Shown: positions 13,045-20,152 of the stretch, one piece after another | Position numbering within the stretch: the stretch's first letter is position 1 | How the letters are laid out: each line of letters starts with the position of its first letter | DNA from: a virus | Virus record (IMG/VR): IMGVR_UViG_3300046009_006561 | Span: 1 to 29,160 of that record | Length of the DNA stretch: 29,160 bases | Strand: one strand, 5' to 3' | Notes under the pieces: generated by a model | What the model saw: the letters and a program-made list of their open reading frames with translations, nothing else | Databases searched by the model: none | What the model was told of the DNA's origin: nothing | Program-made: the position numbers and the translations under genes

Positions 13045-13060
13045 TTCAGCCTCCAAGTGA

Positions 13061-13081
13061 GGGAGGGGGAATCCCCCTCCC
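13061..13081 (-). other. Very stable hairpin between SSB-like and HNH genes
   Basis: A perfect 9-bp inverted repeat, GGGAGGGGG against CCCCCTCCC, with a 3-base loop. It lies 12 bases after the SSB-like stop and 16 bases before the HNH start. No T-run follows on the minus strand, so it is not a standard intrinsic terminator. It could slow readthrough or protect the SSB mRNA end. Confidence 0.55.
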
Positions 13082-13093
13082 TGCTTTGTTAGA

Positions 13094-13588: not shown

Positions 13589-14387
13589 TCCTTACAGCCG
13601 CGAAATAGTCGGCTAAACCTGTTTCGAGCGGATAAGACGCTTGAACTTTTGAAGGTGCTGTGTTTTTGCACTCAATCGTTCCTTGAGACGTGGTGAAGAT
13701 CTGCCGTTTGAGATTTTGCCCGCGACCAGAAGACTGCGCAAGCAAGACCGTGTTGAAGTAACGGCCCACTTTCGGAGGGAGAGCTTTTCCCAAAGTGTTA
13801 GGATAGTAACGCTCCGGGCCACTTTCGTCTCCCATCGGTTTGATGTGGCAGTTGATTATCACGTTGCATTTTACGGACTCGTCGTAGAGCATACGAAGAA
13901 GGTTTTCGACCAAAACCTGAGCCAAGCCCCAATCGGATTGATGCGGGTGCTGGCCGAGGCGACCGTTCATTGCCAAAATGTAAGACAAAGCTGCATCGGA
14001 AAGCATGGTGAGCGAGTCGATGACGAGAACTGTTTTGCTGTCCCATGTGGTGATGGGGCCGAGGCTCGTGTCGCCGTCTTTCCAATCGCCCAACATGCTT
14101 GTCGTGCGCTGCCAAACGCTGGCCTTCGCGGGGATCAACTTGCCGCCCACGTTTTTCATTGGCTCCGTGATGGTCACGTAATCCACGTTTGCGATGCTGT
14201 CTTTCGCGTAGCGGCCTGATGTGAGCAAATCGCGCAGCACATCCACGCCGTTGTCGAGATCGAGGATGCGAATTTTGTAGTTCGCCGCCGCAAGGCTCGC
14301 AAGTGCGCCGGTCTTGCCTGATCCCGAGTCGCCCACGAACAACAGCTTTGTGGTGTCAGCGGAGTGATGGTCTTTAAGGGATGGCAT
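13584..14387 (-). CDS. Sak4-like / RecA-fold ATPase for recombination
   Basis: A 267-residue P-loop ATPase. Walker A is GDSGSGKT (19-26), DLDNG is at about 43-47, and Walker B is VLVIDSLT (120-127). NVIINCHIKPMGDE supplies a polar sensor-like strand. Size and motif spacing match the phage AAA_24/Sak4-like group, which supports single-strand annealing together with an SSB. The SSB-like gene is directly downstream and the PD-(D/E)XK nuclease gene is a few hundred bases upstream, so these genes form a recombination set. Its ATG shares its A with the stop of the 50-residue gene before it (TAATG). Confidence 0.75.
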   Translation of the reverse strand: MPSLKDHHSADTTKLLFVGDSGSGKTGALASLAAANYKIRILDLDNGVDVLRDLLTSGRYAKDSIANVDYVTITEPMKNVGGKLIPAKASVWQRTTSMLGDWKDGDTSLGPITTWDSKTVLVIDSLTMLSDAALSYILAMNGRLGQHPHQSDWGLAQVLVENLLRMLYDESVKCNVIINCHIKPMGDESGPERYYPNTLGKALPPKVGRYFNTVLLAQSSGRGQNLKRQIFTTSQGTIECKNTAPSKVQASYPLETGLADYFAAVRN

Positions 14388-14539
14388 TATTGCATCTCCG
14401 CTTCAACAAGACCTGAAAGGATAAGTTCAGCAGTTGCTTTGTTTTCGCACACAGCAATTTTGCGATAAACGCCATCTCGATCTGCTTTGATGATGCAGAA
14501 AGTTGTGCCTTCTTCTATGTAAATTGCGTAAGAGGTCAT
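14387..14539 (-). CDS. 50-residue protein of unknown function
   Basis: The 50 codons begin MTSYAIYIEEGTTFCI and end LVEAEMQ. The peptide alternates strands and polar turns and then ends in a helix. GGAG lies 8 bases before the ATG. It overlaps the upstream 49-residue gene by ATGA and the downstream ATPase gene by TAATG. This tight packing, on the same strand, is the main reason to call it real. Confidence 0.6.
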   Translation of the reverse strand: MTSYAIYIEEGTTFCIIKADRDGVYRKIAVCENKATAELILSGLVEAEMQ

Positions 14540-14685
14540 GTCATGCTCCGTTGTAGTGCGACTGATATTTGTTTTGCCAAAAGTTCGTGAGGCGTTGTGG
14601 CGACTGCGATCCAGGTTTGCGATTTACGGTCGAAGACGATGATGATGTAACCGTCGTCTGAGTGGCGAACGATGTGGACGCTCAT
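14536..14685 (-). CDS. 49-residue protein of unknown function
   Basis: The 49 codons begin MSVHIVRHSDDGYIIIVFDR, then SQTWIAVATTPHELL, then a helix. It has the same strand-turn-strand-helix layout and length as the next gene, so the two might be diverged copies, but identity is low. It starts in an ATGA overlap with the nuclease gene and ends in an ATGA overlap with the 50-residue gene. The last codons contain the GGAG used by the next start. Confidence 0.6.
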   Translation of the reverse strand: MSVHIVRHSDDGYIIIVFDRKSQTWIAVATTPHELLAKQISVALQRSMT

Positions 14686-15626
14686 ATGTCACCGCGAACT
14701 TTGAGCGGGTCCCAGATGCGTTTAGTGAAATCTGCGCGAAGCCACTCGTGACGCACGGATGGGGGAAGGCCGCAGATTTTACGGAACGGACAACCGCCAT
14801 ACATGCCGCAGGCTTTGTCGTTCATCGGCCAATAGTTTTGTGCAGCGTAAAGTTCGGCTGTGGCGATGTATTGCCCGAGGTCGAAATACCATTCTTCCAG
14901 CCCACTTTCAGTCCGTGGAACGACGCCTCGCAAGAAACGTGTGAAGGTCTGCGCGATCTGCGCACCGTCCACGATGATGCCTTCGATCTGCACGTTGTAA
15001 ACGATCTTTCCCGCAATCGCGTAAAGCGACATCTGGTTGTCGGGTGTGAACTTGTCGAAGAACGACTGGTTGATTGTGGACTTTGTGGTTTTGCGGTCGA
15101 GCACGAAGGCTTTGCCATTAAGCGTGGCGAGACGATCAAGATGCCCGCAGAGCAAAATGCTTTCGCCTTGGCGTGACGTGTAGCCGGAGTCGAAGCGGAA
15201 CGAAAGTTCGACCGCAGGCTTGCCATTCGCGAGGCGCACAGTTTCAATCGGATCGTCTTTGAACTGATCGAGATACCAAACGATGCTGCGCAGGAGGGTG
15301 AGGCGATTTTTGTTTGGGTCGTCTGAAATCCACGGACGATTTTTTTGCTCGTCCCAAGTGATTGTCAACACATATCTAACCACTTCACGCAGCGCTTCGT
15401 CATAACCCATGCCGCCGAAGCGCAGATGATCGTATTGTTCAAGCGCGGAGTGAAAGTGAAGGCCGAAAGTTAGGTGGACGGAGATTTCTCTCGGCTGCCA
15501 TCCCTCAAGAATGGAAAGCTGGTAATAGCGTGGGCACGTTTTGAAAGCGCCTATCGAGGTGCTGTCCCACGCAAATTGAAAGCGCGGAGTGATTAGCGAA
15601 AGTGAGTTGTTTACGACTTCTGACAT
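14682..15626 (-). CDS. PD-(D/E)XK nuclease with Fe-S cysteines (RecB/Cas4-like)
   Basis: A 314-residue protein. It has SIGAFKTCPRYYQL at 24-37 with Cys31, then GLHFHSALE, Glu140, GHLD (161-164, Asp163), DRKTTK (Asp177, Lys179) and QMSLYA near 198. Three Cys at 273, 279 and 285 (ACGMYGGCPFRKIC) complete a four-Cys Fe-S cluster as in AddB and Cas4. This is a RecB-family nuclease, likely a 5' or end-processing exonuclease for recombination with the neighbouring ATPase and SSB. I use the ATG at 15626 with AGGGA upstream. A GTG 13 codons earlier lies inside the upstream gene. Confidence 0.85.
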   Translation of the reverse strand: MSEVVNNSLSLITPRFQFAWDSTSIGAFKTCPRYYQLSILEGWQPREISVHLTFGLHFHSALEQYDHLRFGGMGYDEALREVVRYVLTITWDEQKNRPWISDDPNKNRLTLLRSIVWYLDQFKDDPIETVRLANGKPAVELSFRFDSGYTSRQGESILLCGHLDRLATLNGKAFVLDRKTTKSTINQSFFDKFTPDNQMSLYAIAGKIVYNVQIEGIIVDGAQIAQTFTRFLRGVVPRTESGLEEWYFDLGQYIATAELYAAQNYWPMNDKACGMYGGCPFRKICGLPPSVRHEWLRADFTKRIWDPLKVRGDI

Positions 15627-15642
15627 GGGGCGTCCCTGTCTG

Positions 15643-15846
15643 TTAGGATTTGCGAGTGTCTGCACCGATCTGAACCATGCGATAGCCGTTCATCAGCATC
15701 GCTTGAATGCCGTCGTGATGTCCTCTCAAAAACATGGTGTGTGCGATGAGACGCTCGATCTTTTCACTTGCCTCATCCCCGAGCCATGTTGACGCCTGCT
15801 GCCGAATGTCCTGCACGAGTTGCTCAAGTTCTTCTTTGGTCAGCAT
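15643..15846 (-). CDS. 67-residue helical protein, unknown
   Basis: A charged helical protein (KEELEQLVQDIRQQA) with a His-rich middle (IAHTMFLRGHHDGIQ). I do not recognise it. An AAGGTG ribosome site 6 bases before the ATG overlaps the stop region of the preceding gene. It lies just upstream of the Fe-S nuclease gene and shares its strand and packing. Confidence 0.6.
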   Translation of the reverse strand: MLTKEELEQLVQDIRQQASTWLGDEASEKIERLIAHTMFLRGHHDGIQAMLMNGYRMVQIGADTRKS

Positions 15847-15854
15847 GGGGCACC

Positions 15855-16151
15855 TTAAAAGTTCAAGTCGATGTCTTTTAGAAGTTCGTCTGCTGAAAGG
15901 ATCGGGCCTTTCTGGCGAGGCGCTTTTTTGGGCTTTGGCGCTGCTTCCTGCGCGGCAAACTTTTCCCTCTGCGCTCTCAAATAGTCGATGATCCTATCCG
16001 CCTCTGCGTCCGTGATCTGCGGGGCGCGGTTCATCAATTCTTCGAGGCTTGCAGGGGACGCCTCTTCTAAAATCTTTTCCCCGATATGCTCGGCATTAGC
16101 CGTCGTCGATGAGGGCTGTGATGCTGGGGTCGAAGGCGACTGACTTTGCAT
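15855..16151 (-). CDS. 98-residue protein with acidic C-terminal tail
   Basis: The first 20 residues are Ser/Pro/Thr/Gln-rich, the middle is helical (LEELMNRAPQITDAEADRII), and a basic Ala/Lys/Pro linker leads to the end LSADELLKDIDLNF. That tail resembles those of four other proteins in this window. The ATG at 16151 follows GAGG and lies 56 bases inside the RHH-like gene, so the two overlap in different frames. Another ATG sharing the RHH stop (16096) runs into a stop at once, which supports 16151. Function unknown. Confidence 0.6.
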   Translation of the reverse strand: MQSQSPSTPASQPSSTTANAEHIGEKILEEASPASLEELMNRAPQITDAEADRIIDYLRAQREKFAAQEAAPKPKKAPRQKGPILSADELLKDIDLNF

Positions 16152-16323
16152 GAGCTTTCCTCTTTATTTGCTGCAGATACGCATGGATGATGAGTCGAAG
16201 AGCCTTGGACCTGCCGACCGTCCGAATGCCTTCGCGGCAAAAAAGCTGGTCGATTTCTTCCAAATCCTTCGTGAAAATGTGGAAGTGGATTTTTGTCGTG
16301 TCCTCAGAAAGCCGAGCGGCCAT
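16096..16323 (-). CDS. Ribbon-helix-helix-like DNA-binding protein (candidate)
   Basis: A 75-residue protein. A strand KIHFHIF is followed by a helix with KDLEEIDQLF, a turn with GRS, and a second helix KALRLIIHAYLQQI. This is the order of ribbon-helix-helix repressors such as Arc and CopG, although the strand is less regular than in classical members. It begins one base after the stop of the preceding gene (TAAAATG) and uses AGGAG inside that gene's last codons. A transcriptional regulator is my inference. Confidence 0.5.
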   Translation of the reverse strand: MAARLSEDTTKIHFHIFTKDLEEIDQLFCREGIRTVGRSKALRLIIHAYLQQIKRKAHAKSVAFDPSITALIDDG

Positions 16324-16324
16324 T

Positions 16325-16621
16325 TTAGTCGTCTCCTAACAAGTCGGCTAAGTTGTAAAGGGGGCCGTCTCCCTGTGGGTTTTGTTTAAGGGCTTCGCCC
16401 TGCGGGGGCGTGGACTGCACTTGCGGTTTGTCGGTTTTGACTATCCAAATATGTGTCGGAGAAGTGGGGGATCGGGAGATTTGAAGAATGTCGAGGTCAG
16501 GGTCTTTTCGTTTTGCTGCGTAAAGGCGCTGAAGTGACATCTGGTAATTGCCCAGAAGTTCGACTTCAATTCCGTAGTCGGAATGATAAGCCTCGTAGAG
16601 CAACTCCATTTCTTTCGACAT
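16325..16621 (-). CDS. Conserved phage protein, 98 residues, tail NLADLLGDD
   Basis: The N-terminal part (LLYEAYHSDYGIEVELLG, then LQRLYAAKRKDPDLDIL) leads to ISRSPTSPTHIWIVKTD, an ending I know from small hypothetical phage proteins but without a role. A Gln/Pro-rich linker follows and the chain ends NLADLLGDD. The GGAGAC coding the Gly-Asp of the tail is also the ribosome site of the next gene. The AAGGTG before its own ATG comes 20 bases after the terminator, so it is the first gene past the break in this unit. Confidence 0.6.
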   Translation of the reverse strand: MSKEMELLYEAYHSDYGIEVELLGNYQMSLQRLYAAKRKDPDLDILQISRSPTSPTHIWIVKTDKPQVQSTPPQGEALKQNPQGDGPLYNLADLLGDD

Positions 16622-16641
16622 TGCACCTTTTACCTTTTGGC

Positions 16642-16670
16642 AAAAAGAAAGCGGGGGCAGACCCCCCGCT
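16642..16670 (-). terminator. Intrinsic terminator on the minus strand
   Basis: A perfect 8-bp stem (AGCGGGGG at 16650-16657 against CCCCCGCT at 16663-16670) with a 5-base loop. On the minus strand it is followed by TTCTTTTT. It separates the gene at 16762-17235 from the 16621 gene and everything behind it, so it sets how much early transcription reaches the replication genes. Confidence 0.8.
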
Positions 16671-16741
16671 CGCCAGTAGTTTCAGAGGTCCATCGTCTGG
16701 CTGACGGACAAGCGGGGAAGGGAGGAAACGAAAACCCCGCT
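16650..16741 (-). promoter_or_regulatory. Candidate transcription attenuator (four mutually complementary arms)
   Basis: In transcription order the arms are AGCGGGG (16741-16735), CCCCGCT (16717-16711), AGCGGGGG (16670-16663) and CCCCCGCT (16657-16650), and a T-run ends the set. Arms 1:2 and 3:4 give a hairpin plus terminator. Arm 2 can instead pair with arm 3 and would then prevent the terminator. A small stem (16694-16697 with 16703-16706) lies between arms 2 and 3. The sequence shows the complementarity; regulation is inferred. Confidence 0.45.
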
Positions 16742-16761
16742 ATTCATGCAACCCGCAGGTA

Positions 16762-17235
16762 TTAGAAAAGGTCCGAAAGCAGGTCACCAGCGATCTGGCG
16801 GGAAGAATTGACACGACGCTCGGCTTCCTCGCGGATTTCCGGCTTGTGCTGCAGAACCTTCGCGACGTATTCGGAAATCTGCTCGGCGGAATAGTCCGAA
16901 GGGTTGCCACCCTTTTTGCGAATGGCCGCGAGAACCTGCTCCTTGGCGATCTTATTGGCTTCCTTCGCGACCGGATCAGCCGCAGCCTTCGGGGCGCGGA
17001 CAGTGAACGAATAGGCGTCAGCATACGCCTGAAACTCTTTCGAGAGGGCAGAGGCGTCCACGTCGCCAGCTTCCGCAGCCTTTTTGATCTTGGCGATCAG
17101 CGAGGTCCGCACGTTGTCCGCGAGGACATGGTTCAGCTTGTCCGCTTCGAGCGCGGTCAGCACATGACCTTCAGCGTAGGGCTGCGCGACGGAGACGTTG
17201 ACGCCATGCGGCAGCTTGAGAGCACGATTTGACAT
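16762..17235 (-). CDS. 157-residue helical protein with leader and DLLSDLF tail
   Basis: It starts MSNRALKLPHGVNVSVAQPY and continues as charged helices (AKIKKAAEAGDVDASALSKEF and an Ala/Lys-rich middle). It ends RQIAGDLLSDLF. I do not recognise the family. It is unusually set off: 230 bases without a gene precede it, and an attenuator-like array follows it. The ribosome site AAAGGA lies 7-8 bases before the ATG. Such isolation suggests that it is separately regulated or abundant. Its C-terminal tail matches other proteins here without any ribosome site reason. Confidence 0.65.
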   Translation of the reverse strand: MSNRALKLPHGVNVSVAQPYAEGHVLTALEADKLNHVLADNVRTSLIAKIKKAAEAGDVDASALSKEFQAYADAYSFTVRAPKAAADPVAKEANKIAKEQVLAAIRKKGGNPSDYSAEQISEYVAKVLQHKPEIREEAERRVNSSRQIAGDLLSDLF

Positions 17236-17465
17236 ATTTTGGTCCTTTGAATTTTAGGATTGTGGGGAATGCCCCTTTGACGGTTTAAGGTGCCATAAGG
17301 TTTGACCCATTGCAACTAAAAAGTCATGCGCTGGGGAAAAAACTTAGGGCCATTTCATACCGTCTAGCAAAGGGGCCTAATCCCCGTCACCACCCGTGCC
17401 AGCCGCACAGCGCAATCAGCCGTCCGGGCTTTTTAACTTTCCATTTCGGAGCCTTGCGTTGCGCC
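17236..17465 (-). other. Gene-free structured leader of the 17235 gene
   Basis: No plausible gene lies in these 230 bases. A long-range inverted repeat pairs 17271-17284 with 17359-17376 over 14 positions, with a 4-base bulge. A weaker stem pairs 17374-17380 with 17344-17351 and is followed on the minus strand by GTTTTTT, which could be a leaky terminator. GGGG/CCCC stems occur at 17264-17275 and 17372-17385. I find no convincing -10/-35 pair. The half-site GGTTTGACCC (17309-17318) also occurs near 24079. Confidence 0.4.
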
Positions 17466-17630
17466 TCAGTTAAAACATTGGGCTTGGGTGCAGGTCGGCG
17501 CGCCTGTTACGGAACTCGCCTTACTGACGGCGGTGAATTCATAATCAGAGATATTGGCAAGCTCTGAGACGTTGCGAATATAAGCGCAGCCGATCAGAAC
17601 GCCGTTTATGCGAAGGTCAATTGTGAGCAT
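17466..17630 (-). CDS. 54-residue conserved small phage protein
   Basis: It starts MLTIDLRINGVLIGCAYIRN and continues VSELANISDYEFTAV, an N-terminal pattern (strand, turn, NVSxLAxISDY) that I associate with small phage hypotheticals. In longer relatives more strands follow, so this may be a short form. A strong GGAGGAG site ends 5 bases before the ATG. The start lies 14 bases inside the previous gene. No function is known to me. Confidence 0.6.
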   Translation of the reverse strand: MLTIDLRINGVLIGCAYIRNVSELANISDYEFTAVSKASSVTGAPTCTQAQCFN

Positions 17631-17931
17631 TATTCTCCTCCAGCATAGCGCGGGCATAAAGCGCACTAATAACCTGCACATGCGTGACGCCAGCCACGTC
17701 AGCAATGTATTGAATGGCGTATTCTGTGGACATATCGTCGTCCACAAGGCCGTCCCATAAATCAATGATCGTTTGTTGACGGTGCGTCAGCATTTTCTTC
17801 TCCAATAAGTCGTGGCCCGCGAGGGTTTCTGGCGGAAGGTCGAGTCCTTTTTTGCGTAAGCGATAACGAGCGGAATGCAATCGCGCCTTCTCGCGGTTTT
17901 CCTCTCGCCACGATTTTTTATCGAAGGCCAT
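17617..17931 (-). CDS. 104-residue HTH-like small protein
   Basis: The start MAFDKKSWREENREKARLHS leads into a very basic helix with RYRLRKKGL. The C-terminal third (STEYAIQYIADVAGVTHVQV) could be a helix-turn-helix. A DNA-binding role is a guess from charge and shape. AAAGGAG stands 8 bases before the ATG at 17931, which decides the start over a longer frame without a site. Both ends overlap neighbours by 14 bases. Confidence 0.55.
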   Translation of the reverse strand: MAFDKKSWREENREKARLHSARYRLRKKGLDLPPETLAGHDLLEKKMLTHRQQTIIDLWDGLVDDDMSTEYAIQYIADVAGVTHVQVISALYARAMLEENNAHN

Positions 17932-18097
17932 GGAACAACTCCTTTGGGACACAGACGAAGCCGATTTTATAACCAAGTCCGCCTTGCGCGCTAACAGTTT
18001 TTCCAGCGTTGTCGCAGGCTTCTTTGGAAACAAACTCATGCGAGGTCGTAGCGATGTTTGCACCGACAAACCAGATTATCAAAACCCATGCAGGCAT
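17918..18097 (-). CDS. 59-residue protein with N-terminal hydrophobic segment
   Basis: MPAWVLIIWFVGANIATTS is a hydrophobic start, followed by HEFVSKEACDNAGKTV and the end GFVCVPKEL. Small phage proteins with this order (hydrophobic start, EFxSxEAC, then FVCVP) are common, and the two cysteines may form a disulfide in the periplasm. The exact start is unsure because ATGs at 18112 and 18106 are in frame. I prefer 18097, which has GGAG nine bases upstream. Confidence 0.6.
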   Translation of the reverse strand: MPAWVLIIWFVGANIATTSHEFVSKEACDNAGKTVSAQGGLGYKIGFVCVPKELFHGLR

Positions 18098-18783: not shown

Positions 18784-19036
18784 GTTTCTCCCCCAGATAA
18801 GCGGCGCGGGCGGCGCGGAGGTTTTCAACCGTTATTTTCATTGCCACGGGATGCTGCCAAATATCGCCGTCCATGTAGTCATCAGGCAGATTATCAGCGG
18901 CGTCAGCAAACGGCTTTAATGCTACCATAAGCCTCTCTATCGCTTCGGCTGCGTCGATAAATTCGTCACGTTTGCTGATAATGTGGTAGGCGCGCAGCTT
19001 CGCAACCAATTCTATAAGTCGGTCAGTCTCAGTCAT
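18770..19036 (-). CDS. 88-residue KPFADAA-type protein, copy 1 of an exact duplication
   Basis: It starts MTETDRLIELVAKLRAYHII and contains DEFIDAAEAIERLMVALKPF and GDIWQHPVAMKI. It ends AAYLGEKHDNE. The first 84 codons are identical to the gene at 19423-19683, because both lie in an exact 274-bp repeat. Only the last residues differ, where the copy joins different flanks. GGAGAAG precedes the ATG and is encoded by the Glu-Lys codons of the previous gene. Confidence 0.75.
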   Translation of the reverse strand: MTETDRLIELVAKLRAYHIISKRDEFIDAAEAIERLMVALKPFADAADNLPDDYMDGDIWQHPVAMKITVENLRAARAAYLGEKHDNE

Positions 19037-19059
19037 TTTTCTTCTCCAAAGCGGCGCGG
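18786..19059 (-). repeat. Direct repeat copy A, 274 bp
   Basis: By reading, this stretch is base-for-base identical to 19433-19706, 647 bases to the right and in the same orientation. It covers nearly all of one gene, its ribosome site and the last codons of the preceding gene. Perfect identity, including silent positions, implies a recent duplication or ongoing conversion. Confidence 0.9.
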
Positions 19060-19226
19060 AGGTCGTCGTAGCAATACTTGGCCCAATCCAATTCTGTCCG
19101 CAGTTTCTTGTTTTCCGCTTCAAGAGCCGCGATGCGGGCGCGTAGCGCCAGCGTTTCATCAGCGCGGATTTCATGAACCGCTTGGTGTTCGGCCATCAAA
19201 GGCGGCCCGTTCCCAACCCCACTCAT
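19029..19226 (-). CDS. 65-residue coiled-coil protein
   Basis: After a short start (MSGVGNGPPLMAEHQ) comes a heptad-like helix, LRARIAALEAENKKLRTELDWA, and the end LRAALEKKND. The leucine spacing suggests a coiled coil. The last codons (EKKND) form the ribosome site and overlap the start of copy 1 by 8 bases. The ATG at 19226 follows a GGAG/AAGGA site and overlaps the upstream gene by ATGA. Confidence 0.65.
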   Translation of the reverse strand: MSGVGNGPPLMAEHQAVHEIRADETLALRARIAALEAENKKLRTELDWAKYCYDDLRAALEKKND

Positions 19227-19426: not shown

Positions 19427-19683
19427 AGCTTATTCTCCCCCAGATAAGCGGCGCGGGCGGCGCGGAGGTTTTCAACCGTTATTTTCATTGCCACGGGATG
19501 CTGCCAAATATCGCCGTCCATGTAGTCATCAGGCAGATTATCAGCGGCGTCAGCAAACGGCTTTAATGCTACCATAAGCCTCTCTATCGCTTCGGCTGCG
19601 TCGATAAATTCGTCACGTTTGCTGATAATGTGGTAGGCGCGCAGCTTCGCAACCAATTCTATAAGTCGGTCAGTCTCAGTCAT
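19423..19683 (-). CDS. 86-residue KPFADAA-type protein, copy 2 of the exact duplication
   Basis: Identical to copy 1 through residue AAYLGE and then ending NKL. The ATG lies 8 bases inside the preceding gene (ATGACTGA), whose last codons supply GGAGAAG. Having two identical genes in one small cluster is unusual for a compact phage genome. It may reflect either dosage or a transient recombination product. Confidence 0.75.
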   Translation of the reverse strand: MTETDRLIELVAKLRAYHIISKRDEFIDAAEAIERLMVALKPFADAADNLPDDYMDGDIWQHPVAMKITVENLRAARAAYLGENKL

Positions 19684-19706
19684 TTTTCTTCTCCAAAGCG
19701 GCGCGG
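19433..19706 (-). repeat. Direct repeat copy B, 274 bp
   Basis: The partner of 18786-19059. Left of the repeat the sequences diverge at once. Right of it the first copy continues into the gene at 19029 and this one into the gene at 19676. Both of those genes end in LEKKND, so the breakpoint lies within a short shared coding junction. Confidence 0.9.
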
Positions 19707-20152
19707 GCGGCTTCGGCGTATCGCTTATAATCCGCCTCCCATATGTCCGATGTGTAGACGCGCTCTAAGTGGTTTGCAGCGACATTCAGCGCGGCTTCAA
19801 GTTCCGCGATGCGGTCGCGTTGCACTTTAATGGTGTCGTCTCTTGCCTCATGACGCATAAGAACGGCGACCATCTGCTCAAGTTCCGCAATGCGGGCTGG
19901 CATTTCGTGTCGCCGCGCAGTCGCTTCTTGAAGCTCTCCGCATAATGTGGCGTCTGGCAGCAAGTCCATTAGCGCAAACACGCGCATGACATACTTGCCA
20001 ACTTCTGTTTCCAACTCCGCGATACGCTTCTCTTGGCTGCGGATAAGGCTCATGGCTTGATGGCAAGCGCCTGCTTCGCCCGTATATCCCTTGGCATTTA
20101 GCCAGTCCTCGACGTTCACAAGGTCTGGGTAGGTGTTGGTGTGGTCAGTCAT
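19676..20152 (-). CDS. 158-residue coiled-coil protein
   Basis: It starts MTDHTNTYPDLVNVEDWLNA. Three leucine-zipper-like stretches follow (EKRIAELETEVG, ARIAELEQMVAVL and RDRIAELEAALNVAA), and it ends ARAALEKKND. A long coiled coil is likely. GGAGG and GAAGAA precede the ATG at 20152. The longer frame upstream is the shadow of the repeat protein. No domain is recognised. Confidence 0.65.
   Translation of the reverse strand: MTDHTNTYPDLVNVEDWLNAKGYTGEAGACHQAMSLIRSQEKRIAELETEVGKYVMRVFALMDLLPDATLCGELQEATARRHEMPARIAELEQMVAVLMRHEARDDTIKVQRDRIAELEAALNVAANHLERVYTSDIWEADYKRYAEAARAALEKKND

Follow-up and report, generated by a model that had tools for sequence, protein, structure and literature searches.

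The RNA encoded on the minus strand of this viral record, between the genes for a 157-aa and a 98-aa protein, has a three-part structure: a stable hairpin (hairpin 1), a pseudoknot, and a terminator. This architecture is well supported, with paired changes on both sides of the pseudoknot helices, diverging stems in the two hairpins, and a constant CCUCCC in the loop of hairpin 1 among relatives. Our preferred interpretation, to which we assign a probability of roughly 0.45, is that this is a structured RNA of the 3' UTR, which may be set free as an sRNA and would pair with Shine-Dalgarno sequences in trans. The window is the whole IMG/VR record that was analysed, 29,160 bases in length; the features are collected in Table 1.

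Table 1 Positions of the RNA element and its flanking genes in the window.
Feature	Position	Strand	Description
157-aa ORF (stop codon included)	16762..17235	-	conserved; RNA element at transcript 3' end
Hairpin 1	16711..16741	-	7-bp stem AGCGGGG/CCCCGCT, 17-nt loop UUUUCGUUUCCUCCCUU
UUUCCUCCCU, anti-Shine-Dalgarno-like	16719..16728	-	in hairpin 1 loop; same as alphaR8 sRNA core
Pseudoknot stem P1	16688..16709	-	16709-16704 pairs with 16693-16688
Pseudoknot stem P2	16672..16701	-	16701-16697 pairs with 16676-16672, crossing P1
Intrinsic terminator	16642..16671	-	stem 16671-16649, U-tract 16649-16642
98-aa ORF, downstream	16325..16621	-	begins ~20 nt past U-tract

Gene setting and terminator

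An earlier note on this DNA had proposed that four pairing arms and a T-run form an attenuator ahead of the replication genes. On the minus strand, 5' to 3', the arms are AGCGGGG (16741-16735), CCCCGCT (16717-16711), AGCGGGGG (16670-16663), and CCCCCGCT (16657-16650), and the T-run TTCTTTTT (16649-16642) directly follows the fourth arm; these are exactly the positions and order that had been claimed. Recombination and replication genes are found further downstream. Throughout the 29,160-base record, AGCGGGG and CCCCGCT separated by 3-30 nucleotides are found at these two places and nowhere else, and the backward-read control pattern has 0 occurrences. When the segment was folded, as the note had suggested, it beat its shuffles (z = -2.28; 7 of 200 were as good), and the 1:2 and 3:4 hairpins are near-certain, with pair probabilities of ~0.99.

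The pairing of arms 3 and 4 as a terminator is well supported: a GC hairpin runs directly into a U-tract, and this combination is kept while the stems change. A script detected hairpin and U-tract, with differing stems, in all element-bearing close relatives except one (L011), where the terminator is plain by eye. A scan of part of the window returned 27 terminator-like sites, a total not above chance (26.3 expected), and this hairpin is one of the strongest. A kissing interaction between CAGAC and the terminator loop GTCTG was rejected, as it is missing in L013 and L015, whose loops consist of Ts.

Only read-through, or a promoter that escaped notice, could bring transcription to the 98-aa ORF. 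The stop at the terminator is probably incomplete, as no promoter is visible for the replication genes beyond it. A scan with the sigma-70 consensus as its sole model found no promoter-like site close upstream of the element; processing would thus be required for a free sRNA.

Elsewhere in the window, a 283-nt direct repeat (18786-19068 and 19433-19715) is 99% identical with a start-to-start spacing of 647, and a near-perfect palindrome, AGGGAGGGGGATTCCCCCTCCCT (13060-13082, minus strand), lies inside an ORF annotated as an HNH endonuclease, just ahead of its likely real start.

Several features hint at the host. The nearest DNA polymerase from an isolated phage is that of Caulobacter phage Kuura (43.6% identity), whose gene order is similar to that of the window, and the CcrM site GANTC is depleted (58 found versus 112 expected) while GATC (128) is not. 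Together, these point to an alphaproteobacterial host, short of proving it.

Conservation of the pseudoknot and hairpin 1

Among viral contigs we collected 42 relatives of the 157-aa protein, 19 of the 98-aa protein, and 62 of the Sak4-like protein; a profile search added distant relatives with 31-35% identity. At these loci we examined the region that follows the 157-aa gene, and the detailed comparison covers 22 element-bearing close relatives plus the window. In two natural relatives, L024 and L044, only ~15 nt separate the two genes and the element is absent; it is therefore dispensable. The 157-aa protein itself has no reliable Pfam or PHROGs match and no tblastn match in isolated phages, its AlphaFold model is of low confidence (pLDDT 76, pTM 0.43) with no fold match, and Kuura_050 resembles it by eye only. 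Neither the exact hairpin nor the protein has a match in 84,980 bacterial and archaeal genomes, and window positions 14000-18000 show no DNA similarity to isolated phages. A search for a single-subunit RNA polymerase (PF00940) gave no match in 11 relatives, and none in the control either.

Between hairpin 1 and the terminator lies an H-type pseudoknot (16709-16672, minus strand) that the earlier note overlooked. It is built from two crossing helices, both with covariation, and is present in eleven distinct variants. In P1, 98.5% of cells are paired, with two-sided changes at 3 of 6 pairs; in P2, 100% are paired, with two-sided changes at 4 of 5. Overall, 99.2% of cells in the alignment used (A3) pair and 7 of 11 pairs have changed on both sides. 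The 18 doubly changed cells compare with a mean of 3.8 in shuffled alignments (0 of 500 shuffles are as high), and slid versions of the pairing, run as a control, give at most 3 two-sided pairs. The third loop ends in a conserved GAAACU; across variants, 1-6 nt separate the 3' strand of P2 from the terminator stem that follows. A descriptor of the pseudoknot matches only this locus in the 1.55 Mb of sequence searched. L008 and the L026-L042 clade have the terminator and hairpin 1 with no pseudoknot. Ribosomal frameshifting at the pseudoknot was rejected, given its position past the stop codon with no conserved ORF there. The mRNA of T4 gene 32 also has a pseudoknot, which binds gp32; both are H-type pseudoknots in phage mRNA of the replication region, but that of T4 lies upstream of the start codon, whereas the one in the window follows the stop codon and precedes a terminator.

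The loop of hairpin 1 contains CCUCCC in the window and in every one of the 22 close relatives with the element that were compared (23 sequences), while the stems around it diverge: AGCGGGG/CCCCGCT, CGCGGGAG/CTCCCGCG, CCGGGG/CCCCGG, CCCGAGGGG/CCTCTCGGG, CAGGGGC/GCCCCTG, CAGTGGC/GCCACTG, and CTCCAAGGCC/GGCCTTGGAG. Dinucleotide shuffling of each sequence gives a comparable hairpin in 0-10% of cases. The full UUUCCUCCCU is present in the window and most pseudoknot-bearing relatives, and only CCUCCC is left in several other lineages. Across the collected loci, CCTCCC stands in the loop of 25 distinct hairpins, and any other order of these letters in 4-6; the count is inflated by homology and by some loci having been retrieved through the motif itself. 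The hairpin test is passed by four of eight distant relatives (31-35% identity), although for L149, one of the four, 61 of 200 shuffles pass as well; Caulobacter phage Kuura does not pass. Given that L008 lost the pseudoknot and exchanged its terminator yet kept hairpin 1, this hairpin looks like the core of the element.

Similar hairpins occur at other loci. In an unrelated phage, GGGGCTGGCG-TTTCCTCCCTTC-CGCCAGCCCC (L163:4602-4633) stands immediately past the stop codon of the major head protein gene, with the same loop as hairpin 1 of the window and no U-tract. A 13-bp perfect hairpin with the loop TTTCCTCCCTT, also without a U-tract, is found in L090 (1155-1191), L091, L095, and L101; in L090 it follows shortly after the stop of an ORF that is SSB-like by its C-terminus (no PHROGs match). 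These two groups are the only intergenic hairpins among the new matches from motif scans of viral contigs, the matches being mostly coding sequence, opposite-strand ribosome-binding sites, or chance. The alphaproteobacterial Bradyrhizobium phage BDU-MI-1 (L153:2490-2530) has an intergenic GCGGGGTTTCCTCCTTTCCCCTCGC, a similar hairpin containing CCUCC. In L026-L042 and L142, a T-arm-like hairpin, CAAGG-TTCGACT-CCTTG, lies between the two genes upstream of the CCUCCC hairpin; ARAGORN found no tRNA in the members of this clade scanned (L026, L029, L030, L033, L036-L038, L041), and no tRNA or tmRNA was found in the window or 20 relatives.

Likeness to known RNAs and the preferred reading

The closest parallels are alphaproteobacterial. 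The alphaR8 sRNAs, SisA-D of Caulobacter and MmgR of Sinorhizobium, share the core UUUCCUCCCU and a Rho-independent terminator; in SisA-D this core is an anti-Shine-Dalgarno sequence beside the terminator, and SisA represses the mRNAs of TonB-dependent receptors in Caulobacter (PMC12559287). The window RNA has the identical 10-nt core (16728-16719) and ends in a Rho-independent terminator. The alphaR8 core is single-stranded behind a weak hairpin and the gene sits beside the FGase gene, whereas the core in the window is held in the loop of a strong GC-closed hairpin, is followed by an extra pseudoknot, and is encoded behind a phage gene; Hfq binding and mRNA repression are further features of the alphaR8 sRNAs.

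The alphar14/cuckoo RNAs have as their hallmark CCUCC-type sequences in hairpin loops on freely varying stems (PMC3927594, PMC10746234), and the related CcsR RNAs, co-transcribed with a small protein gene that precedes them, are released by processing and end in a terminator (PMC10253847). With this group (SmelA075, SmelA099, NfeR1, CcsR1-4) the window RNA shares a CCUCC-type anti-Shine-Dalgarno loop on varying stems and, with CcsR, probable co-transcription behind a protein gene with the terminator last. It differs in having one such hairpin rather than three or four, CCUCCC rather than the full CCUCCUCCC in the loop, a pseudoknot, and no DUF1127 protein. AsxR, AgvB, and StxS of enterobacterial prophages are, like this RNA, encoded by phages; they act on host RNA networks (PMC12559287, PMC12197685), but they work in E. 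coli as anti-sRNAs or derive from toxin transcripts, and in the extracts of these reports an anti-Shine-Dalgarno loop and a pseudoknot are not among their described features. Rfam gave no family match at gathering or permissive thresholds, with chance-level hits only up to E 10. Because its core sits in a strong hairpin loop, it has a single such hairpin, and Rfam gives no match, we do not file the window RNA as an alphaR8 or cuckoo RNA; if the inference holds, it would nonetheless work like them.

We favor a 3'-UTR-derived anti-Shine-Dalgarno RNA because UUUCCUCCCU is the alphaR8 core, because the loop presents it in a cuckoo-like manner, and because of the hints of an alphaproteobacterial host. 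In the model that we infer, which extends to the accumulation of the RNA, its pairing with Shine-Dalgarno sequences in trans, its targets, and the role of the pseudoknot, the interval would be the structured 3' end of the transcript of the 157-aa gene. Transcription would continue beyond the stop codon, hairpin 1 and then the compact H-type pseudoknot would form, and the polymerase would halt at the terminator. The RNA may be kept as it is, or a small RNA of ~100-120 nt may be released from this 3' UTR. Its GC stem would hold the loop UUUCCUCCCU open, and the loop would pair with the Shine-Dalgarno sequence (GGGAGG or GGAGG) of mRNAs from host or phage and so lower translation of the targets, as with the alphaR8 and alphar14/cuckoo sRNAs; the pseudoknot and terminator may shield the RNA or give proteins a surface to bind. 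We saw no conserved target in cis: the ribosome-binding sites of the 157-aa and 98-aa genes are not GGGAGG.

Alternative readings and meaning

The main rival is a 3' end acting purely in cis, in which the hairpins and pseudoknot would shield the mRNA of an abundant early protein from 3' exonucleases, the terminator would lower downstream expression, and the loop would serve a protein or nuclease rather than base-pairing in trans. We regard this as a serious possibility, though short of probable. It fits the position of the element, 0-86 nt from the stop codon and ending in a terminator, and the same-loop hairpins that unrelated phages carry, without a U-tract, behind the major head protein and SSB-like genes, both expected to be highly expressed. 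Yet stabilising hairpins seldom need one fixed loop, and here CCUCCC is constant while the stems change. We find it improbable that the element is a conditional terminator, in which the pseudoknot, as an aptamer binding a metabolite or a protein of the phage, would alter the adjoining termination and so time read-through into the replication genes. The short distance from P2 to the terminator stem, the conserved GAAACU, and downstream genes that seem to require read-through are consistent with such a switch; no Rfam riboswitch or other family matches, however, no mutually exclusive antiterminator is conserved, and L008 and the L026-L042 clade keep the terminator and hairpin 1 without the pseudoknot.

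In the attenuator of the earlier note, arm 2 would pair with arm 3 and block the terminator under some conditions. The two arms are perfectly complementary in the window, and if some factor masked arm 1 the 2:3 pairing would come within 1 kcal/mol of 3:4 (-37.5 versus -38.5, for this genome and with the pseudoknot not counted), which makes it physically feasible. Such complementarity is, however, expected of any two hairpins sharing a GC stem. At equilibrium the 2:3 pairing has a probability of 0.007, whereas 1:2 and 3:4 reach 0.99, and 1:2 is the first to form. Across fifteen variants the complementarity is not kept, with 2-3 consecutive Watson-Crick pairs left in L008, L009, L010, L021, and L033, and its mean within a genome (4.3 bp) is not above that for arms swapped between variants (4.0 bp). 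Forcing 2:3 yields the fold 1:4+2:3, so termination would not be clearly blocked because arms 1 and 4 can still pair. The distance from stop codon to arm 1 varies (0-86 nt), which gives a ribosome no fixed position over arm 1, and no leader ORF is conserved among variants; attenuation by a leader peptide was rejected, as the 21-codon ATG ORF of the window is not conserved. These results make the attenuator very improbable.

It is conceivable, though unlikely, that hairpins displaying the alphaR8 core have arisen repeatedly in alphaproteobacterial phages as mimics of a host sRNA that take over the host's sRNA circuit or divert its sponge; if so, TonB-dependent receptors, for example, would be silenced during infection. 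The locus adds a pseudoknot without an Rfam match. Most known regulatory RNAs encoded by phages come from enterobacterial prophages, and a conserved, covarying RNA in an uncultured phage family that carries the 10-nt core of a major host sRNA family would make anti-Shine-Dalgarno control of host translation by phages directly testable.
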